From IMG/VR virus record IMGVR_UViG_3300035670_000422, positions 1 through 44,178 of that record: a DNA stretch of 44,178 nucleotides. The stretch is one strand, 5' to 3'. The notes beneath the pieces were generated by a model that saw nothing but the letters and a program-made list of their open reading frames with translations, did no database searches and was not told the origin of the DNA. Position numbers and translations under genes: made by a program. This DNA is from a virus. Positions 17,552 through 18,385 of this stretch are shown in pieces. Positions within the stretch are counted from its first letter, which is position 1. Every line of letters begins with the position of its first letter.

Positions 17552-18385
17552 ATGGCCGCTTATTACAACGAGATTGACCCGTATGCGGCCCAGTGGCTGC
17601 GAAACTTGATTGAGGCTGGCCACATTGCGCCCGGCGTCGTAGATGAAAGGAGTATCGAAGATGTCCGCCCGAGCGATCTTTCCGGATTCACGCAGTGTCA
17701 CTTTTTCGCCGGCGTTGGTGTCTGGTCCCTCGCATTACGTCGAGCAGGATGGACAGACGACGTTCCTGTATGGACCGGCAGTTGCCCATGCCAGCCTTTC
17801 AGCGCGGCAGGCGCTGGAGCTGGGTTTGAGGACGCAAGGCACCTTTGGCCAACCTTTGCCTGGCTCATCAAGCAGTGCAAGCCTCCAGTCGTCTTTGGAG
17901 AGCAAGTTGCGAGCAAGGCTGTCGAGCCTTGGGTCGACCTTGTACACGCTGACATGGAAGCCCTGGGTTACGCCTTCGGGGGTATCCCGTTTCCGTCTGC
18001 GGGGGTCGGTGCGCCGCACATCCGGGACAGACTTTTCTGGGTCGCCGACACCTGTGGCCAACGACGACAACAAGTCGCCGGAGGCGCATTTAGCAATGAA
18101 AATCCGAATGGGCGTCCGGGACGGGACGGGAGCAAATCGAAAAGCAATAACCTCTCTACAGGTAATGTCCAAATACTTGGAACTGAAGGACTTCAAAAGG
18201 TTAACGGATACTGGGGAAGCGCTGATTGGCTCTTATACCGAGACGGCCTCTTTAGGCCAGTTGAACCCGGATCATTGCCGTTGGTTGATGGGTTTGCCGG
18301 TCGAGTGGAGCAGGTGCGCGCCTACGGAAACGCTATCAACGCTGAAGCGGCGACGCAATTCATAGCCGCCTACCTCGAAACATAA
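17552..18385 (+). CDS. DNA (cytosine-5) methyltransferase
   Basis: This enzyme transfers a methyl group from S-adenosylmethionine to cytosine C5 in DNA, probably protecting phage DNA from restriction. The 277-aa product carries motif [17 protein letters not shown] (52-67), motif [11 protein letters not shown] with catalytic Cys80, a motif VI-like GEQV (116-119), motif [13 protein letters not shown] (156-164), and motif [19 protein letters not shown] near the end. Motif VI usually reads ENV, so EQV is a mild variant. No restriction enzyme gene is nearby. A second gene is encoded within it in another frame (17661..18365). GAGG lies 8 bases before ATG 17552. Confidence 0.85.
17661..18365 (+). 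CDS. overlapping gene in an alternative frame of the methyltransferase
   Basis: A 234-aa frame lies entirely inside the methyltransferase gene, same strand. Its ATG 17661 has a full AAAGGAG ribosome site about 8 bases upstream, formed from methyltransferase codons. The product begins [20 protein letters not shown] and includes [20 protein letters not shown], a Ser-rich stretch, [34 protein letters not shown], and [20 protein letters not shown] near the C-terminus. I recall phage proteins with TWKxWxxPSG, PTPxANDA and LNPxxxRWLMGxPxEW, often annotated vaguely beside methylases. Their conservation would mean true dual coding. Function unknown. Confidence 0.65.

Follow-up and report, generated by a model that had tools for sequence, protein, structure and literature searches.

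A second coding frame nested in a phage cytosine methyltransferase gene and its proposed role as the recognition subunit of a two-chain enzyme

Introduction

The closest known system to the locus described here is M.EcoHK31I, the methyltransferase of a restriction-modification system of Escherichia coli (YGGCCR), with which its isoschizomer M.EaeI is grouped. Lee et al. reportedly found in 1995 that the small chain of M.EcoHK31I is encoded inside the gene for the large one, in a different frame. Long same-strand overlaps in which both frames are under selection have, to our knowledge, rarely been demonstrated in bacteria and their phages; the overlap considered here covers about 700 bases with selection on both frames.

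In M.EcoHK31I, motifs I-VIII and X lie on the larger of two polypeptides and motif IX alone on the smaller, and the recognition domain is predicted on the large chain (PMC3404938); the sequence of M.EcoHK31I has been named as X82231 (PMC6174562). M.AquI, a two-chain C-5 cytosine (m5C) methyltransferase, is split inside the variable region, and motifs IX and X lie on its small chain (PMC3404938). A second frame within a phage methylase gene is also known from the ShiLan type, in which a mobile insertion carries an out-of-frame HNH homing endonuclease (PMC11855218).

The window analysed here, that is, the whole stretch of 44,178 nucleotides forming positions 1 to 44,178 of IMG/VR virus record IMGVR_UViG_3300035670_000422, comes from a temperate siphovirus-like virus with integrase, tape measure, exonuclease and Gam-like genes. 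Its methyltransferase gene, whose product we call alpha, entirely contains a second open reading frame, beta, on the same strand and shifted by one base (+1). The locus resembles M.EcoHK31I, as that enzyme is described, in that its large chain has motifs I-VIII and X and its small one a motif IX block. However, recognition is predicted on the large chain of M.EcoHK31I, whereas selection at the present locus puts it in the nested chain, and because the recognition domain does not appear to lie on the large chain we file the locus as a variant, and not as a member, of the M.EcoHK31I type. The two systems also differ in context: M.EcoHK31I belongs to a restriction-modification system, whereas no restriction gene adjoining the alpha/beta locus was identified among the genes scanned. 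Since M.EcoHK31I has two chains, reportedly nested, the kind of enzyme is already known; what looks new is its breadth, the series of arrangements leading from single-chain to nested, and the evidence for recognition coded in the nested frame. A full-text literature search, covering papers open without subscription, found no description of the nested phage family.

Results

The features of the locus are collected in Table 1. As a previous sequence-only reading had stated, a frame of 234 codons lies wholly inside the methyltransferase gene on the same strand and is preceded, at good spacing, by a complete AAAGGAG; both the positions and the spacing proved correct. The frame is also open from an earlier ATG at 17643 (240 aa), with the same end.

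Table 1. Positions of alpha, beta and their features in the window
Feature	Position	Strand	Basis
Alpha: m5C methyltransferase catalytic chain, 277 aa	17552..18385	+	PF00145, PHROG 363, M.HhaI-like model
Beta: +1 frame nested in alpha, 234 aa, putative subunit for target recognition and motif IX	17661..18365	+	PHROG 1008, PHROG 31772, openness, selection
AAAGGAG, Shine-Dalgarno of beta	17646..17652	+	8 bases before ATG 17661; sequence
Alpha motif	17702..17728	+	translation, conservation
Alpha motif with catalytic cysteine	17786..17812	+	translation, conservation
Alpha motif	18023..18049	+	translation, conservation
Alpha motif	18323..18352	+	translation; G259 and N260 invariant
Beta conserved block, predicted hairpin (pLDDT about 72-81)	17943..18011	+	W99, L97 and L113 invariant; model
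Beta variable region, one S/WPTP module (SPTPVANDD); alpha frame passive	18042..18191	+	dN/dS; equivalence to LPTP modules
Beta motif IX-like block	18255..18308	+	aligned with motif IX of single-chain enzymes, weakly with M.HhaI

Alpha matched PHROG 363 (E 2.7e-87) and PF00145 (E 8.6e-12; 45.6 bits against a cut-off of 22), the latter only over profile positions 64-166 of 324. Motifs I, IV, VI and VIII of C-5 cytosine-specific DNA methyltransferases are present and conserved in alpha, and its structure model aligned with M.HhaI (Z 13.0, rmsd 3.8, 168 aligned), the model being of low confidence at 181-209 and 241-257, the expected place of the recognition domain. In a profile-profile comparison with canonical enzymes alpha aligned from motif I through motif VIII, where the alignment ended. 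Alpha carries motifs I-VIII and X, and neither a recognition domain nor motif IX was recognisable in its frame from the PF00145 match or the profile-profile match to canonical enzymes. The sequence-only reading, which held that the methyltransferase keeps all its motifs, was therefore mistaken as regards motif IX and the recognition region.

Beta matched PHROG 1008 (E 3.6e-21) and PHROG 31772 (E 1.7e-18), both labelled DNA methyltransferase; Pfam gave no family for the beta of this record, and the DUF matches of single beta homologues in Pfam were inconsistent. The protein is laid out as WPTP modules, of which a simple pattern count gave 0-6 per beta protein, followed by a conserved C-terminal LNPxHxRWLMGLPxEW. 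Motif IX of M.HhaI (RKLHPRECARVMGYPDSYK) was the top but weak match of this block (E 0.047), and the structure model predicts a helix at beta 203-210, within the motif IX-like block. On its own, beta is modelled poorly (mean pLDDT 58), too poorly for the model to be of use, and Foldseek found nothing for it under E 0.001; when beta was compared with PDB profiles, the matches did not exceed chance level. Viral contigs yielded nothing to a degenerate DNA pattern made for LNPxxxxWLMG, the pattern being faulty or too strict, as the block is common there by protein search. Near-identical modules such as WPTPMAGTPAQNGNNAAGNNDSSRKTVAV recur across different phages (e.g. loci L005, L008, L025 and L026), as if exchanged.

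Because direct comparison with M.HhaI-type enzymes is weak, the argument for beta runs via its single-chain relatives. Against a profile of single-chain actinophage methyltransferases built from only five sequences, alpha aligned to motifs IV-VIII (E 2.5e-15) and beta to the LPTP modules and motif IX (E 1.1e-6). In Gordonia phage Phinally, the single chain gp5 matches PHROG 363 at 1-204 and PHROG 1008 at 332-516 (E 4.8e-60), and the enzyme of Mycobacterium phage Philonius likewise has PHROG 363 followed by PHROG 1008; unlike alpha/beta, these are one polypeptide with the LPTP modules and motif IX in frame with the core. PHROG 1008 is therefore read in frame in single-chain enzymes, and homologues of beta extend beyond out-of-frame readings of methyltransferase genes. 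Because of these alignments and of Phinally gp5, we assign beta as the putative recognition and motif IX half of the enzyme, and we propose, from its position, that the variable region at 18042..18191 is the target-recognition region of beta.

To compare relatives we used homologous loci from IMG/VR, one set obtained via the nested product and another independently via the enzyme. In nearly all of these loci the +1 frame was open across almost the whole gene, and the +2 frame had many stops, mostly 6-27. Among 111 representatives, the mean open length of the +1 frame was 293 codons compared to 152 after synonymous shuffling, and that of the +2 frame was no different from shuffled sequence (68 and 75 codons). 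No +1 stop was observed inside the overlap of these representatives, start region excluded, where synonymous resampling gave an expectation of 306 and the lowest count in 100 resamplings was 267; in four homologues, one stop lies exactly at the start site. In loci from bacterial genomes third-frame stops were as expected. Premature stops among relatives are thus absent beyond the start region. An open second frame might arise as an artefact of composition in a GC-rich gene, and a GC content of 53-67% does make chance frames longer, as the 152 open codons averaged by the shuffles illustrate. However, we regard such an origin as practically excluded: the complete lack of stops beside a normal third frame contradicts it, as do the substitution pattern and the codon bias at the start site (see below), and the nesting is also present at a GC of 0.47-0.49 in Paenibacillus and Bacteroides phages. 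It is nearly certain that the second coding frame is real and exceeds chance.

The start site of beta leaves its mark on the codons of alpha. ATG was present at the start of beta in 97 of the 109 informative genes (two of the 111 were gapped there), and the GGAG of the Shine-Dalgarno was preserved in 77 of the 111 homologues. Asp37 of alpha, in the start region of beta, was encoded by GAT in 90% of cases compared to 35% elsewhere, and Arg33, in the Shine-Dalgarno, by AGG in 47% compared to 7.5% elsewhere. The Shine-Dalgarno and the ATG of beta are therefore both maintained by atypical codons of alpha. The position profiles show beta residues 1-44 to be weakly constrained, and gene 58 of phage N15 (L321, 726-1721) holds an unannotated nested frame that is interrupted by a stop in the N-terminal part, because of which the beta of N15 must start later. 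Given these two findings, the start position of beta may vary between phages.

Substitutions between close relatives point to constraint in both frames. In pairs above 85% identity, changes at enzyme codon positions 1/2/3 were distributed 45/15/40% in the overlap compared to 15/10/75% in a control stretch of about 30 codons just upstream in the same genes. By a simple counting method applied to partly non-independent pairs, dN/dS at the same identity was estimated at 0.31 (nested frame) and 0.33 (enzyme). Both frames were under constraint in the N part (beta 23-126), with 0.26 for the enzyme and 0.53 for beta in the closest pairs, and likewise in the C part (enzyme 0.38, beta 0.33). In the variable part of the closest pairs, beta third positions took 79% of the changes, and dN/dS was about 0.1 (0.09-0.19) for beta compared to 1.5-2.1 for the enzyme frame, ratios that may be overstated since the blocks were picked through the similarity of their beta proteins, a choice that favours conservation of beta. 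Stop counts are free of this bias: the enzyme frame had none in the variable part where 293 were expected, and the variable part must therefore be read through. Loci from bacterial genomes, which were selected by the beta profile, gave 68% of changes at beta third positions in the variable part and 0 enzyme-frame stops compared to 140 expected. In single-chain relatives, where read-through is not needed, the frame equivalent to alpha has 1-5 stops. In the recognition region, beta is thus the constrained frame, and the enzyme frame, although kept open, is passive. Overall, purifying selection acts in both frames, as in a conserved overlapping gene, and, together with frame openness and start codon bias, this bears out the proposal that about 700 bases code for two proteins at once.

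The relatives show the two halves in several arrangements. All but one of 328 beta-like ORFs (327/328, in 319 loci) overlapped an alpha-like ORF, so the same blocks recur over other methyltransferase genes. Both halves form one chain in two loci (L361 and L364), are encoded by two adjacent genes in two others (L362 and L363), and in L366 lie in two genes that overlap by about 250 bases in +1. Full nesting is found in the family of this record, in Paenibacillus phage Shelly (GC 0.47), in Bacteroides phage BS-TP4 (GC 0.49) and in a podovirus (L322). Rhodococcus phage ReT1v-1 (L360, LC859273.1, 900-1995) has a mixed arrangement, with the LPTP modules in +1 and motifs IX and X in frame 0 with the core. 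In three further loci (L059, 2925-3909; L290, 2870-3956; L315, 2982-3981) single ORFs match the alpha and beta profiles after a frame change, and are either natural fusions or sequencing errors. The nested layout is old; it is conserved in hundreds of proteobacterial phages and prophages, and layouts akin to it are found in phages of Paenibacillus, Bacteroides and actinobacteria. Of two plasmid regions inspected for a restriction-modification neighbour, one looks prophage-borne.

Discussion

We consider it very probable, on the sequence comparisons above, that the locus encodes a two-subunit m5C methyltransferase with beta as the recognition and motif IX subunit. We favour this reading because the nested frame is open and under selection together with the enzyme frame, because alpha has no recognisable recognition domain or motif IX, which beta appears to supply, because the halves occur split, in partial overlap and nested, and because M.EcoHK31I is a characterised precedent. 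Counting against it are the poor model of beta and its lack of a fold match, the weak match of its motif IX, the small size of the single-chain profile, the placing of the recognition domain of M.EcoHK31I on the large chain, and the signs that the start of beta may vary. In the proposed mechanism, frame 0 would give alpha, with a catalytic Rossmann domain, motifs I-VIII and a C-terminal motif X, and the +1 frame, with its own ribosome-binding site and ATG, would give beta, the two being translated separately from one message. The N-terminal region of beta may form the interface with alpha, and the WPTP-module region and motif IX of beta would supply the small DNA-recognition domain that alpha does not have. 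On DNA, the two chains would come together as a single enzyme, and both would be needed; it is the translation of beta, the assembly and the need for both chains that we infer. The assembled enzyme would modify the phage genome and, judging from its class, would probably serve to protect phage DNA. A role for the second product as a partner of the enzyme, which the sequence-only reading had offered as a guess, gains good support, and its wording, 'modulate or partner', can be sharpened to a putative specificity subunit of the enzyme.

Two other readings accept beta as genuine coding sequence. The second half could be reached by ribosomal frameshifting, yielding a fusion of the N-terminal part of alpha and the C-terminal part of beta in place of independent initiation; such a product would fit the single chains of actinophages, the three loci in which both profiles match one ORF after a frame change, and the weak constraint on beta residues 1-44. 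Yet the Shine-Dalgarno and ATG are conserved through unusual codon choice, and selection on beta is already evident far ahead of motif VIII, in a stretch that alpha would have to translate in frame 0, which makes frameshifting improbable. It is also quite improbable, and a shade more so, that beta is a real protein with a regulatory or unrelated function that merely shares the DNA and is no part of the enzyme. Pfam does not recognise the beta of this record, and the assembly with alpha is conjectural, but beta has its counterpart in the C-terminal half of single-chain methyltransferases, hardly ever occurs apart from alpha, and has the very parts that alpha is without.

A more tentative extension, which we hold to be possible though on balance doubtful, is that the recognition part is a swappable dual-coded cassette in which each WPTP module adds a specificity and alpha just reads through. 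If this were true, swapping modules that have to stay open in two frames would let phages alter their methylation targets or acquire further ones.

Among the other systems compared, M.AquI is like alpha/beta in having two chains, and nesting does not figure in its source description. The ShiLan type resembles this locus in that a phage methylase gene contains a second frame. A hidden homing endonuclease of that type was rejected, as no HNH family was among the Pfam and PHROG matches of beta, and so was an insertion, as the overlap covers conserved core motifs of the enzyme and not an insert.

The range of arrangements suggests how an overlapping gene can originate from a split enzyme rather than de novo. 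The range also bears on annotation. GenBank annotates both frames in Shelly (gp55 and 'g55 internal gene') and K1ind2 (ORF29 and ORF28), with no function or relation between the frames stated in those records, and only one frame in N15 and Tunturi_1. Many annotations of a 'DNA methyltransferase' and of a 'hypothetical protein' are probably halves of one enzyme, and therefore an annotated gene that is recoded without its nested frame may be inactive.

In Mycobacterium phage Babsiella (L369), a 'DNA methylase domain protein' is annotated at 755-1063 inside a single-chain methyltransferase gene. In the E. coli chromosomes H310-H312, two 'DNA cytosine methyltransferase' features lie beneath one match, and are possibly two subunits or a broken gene.
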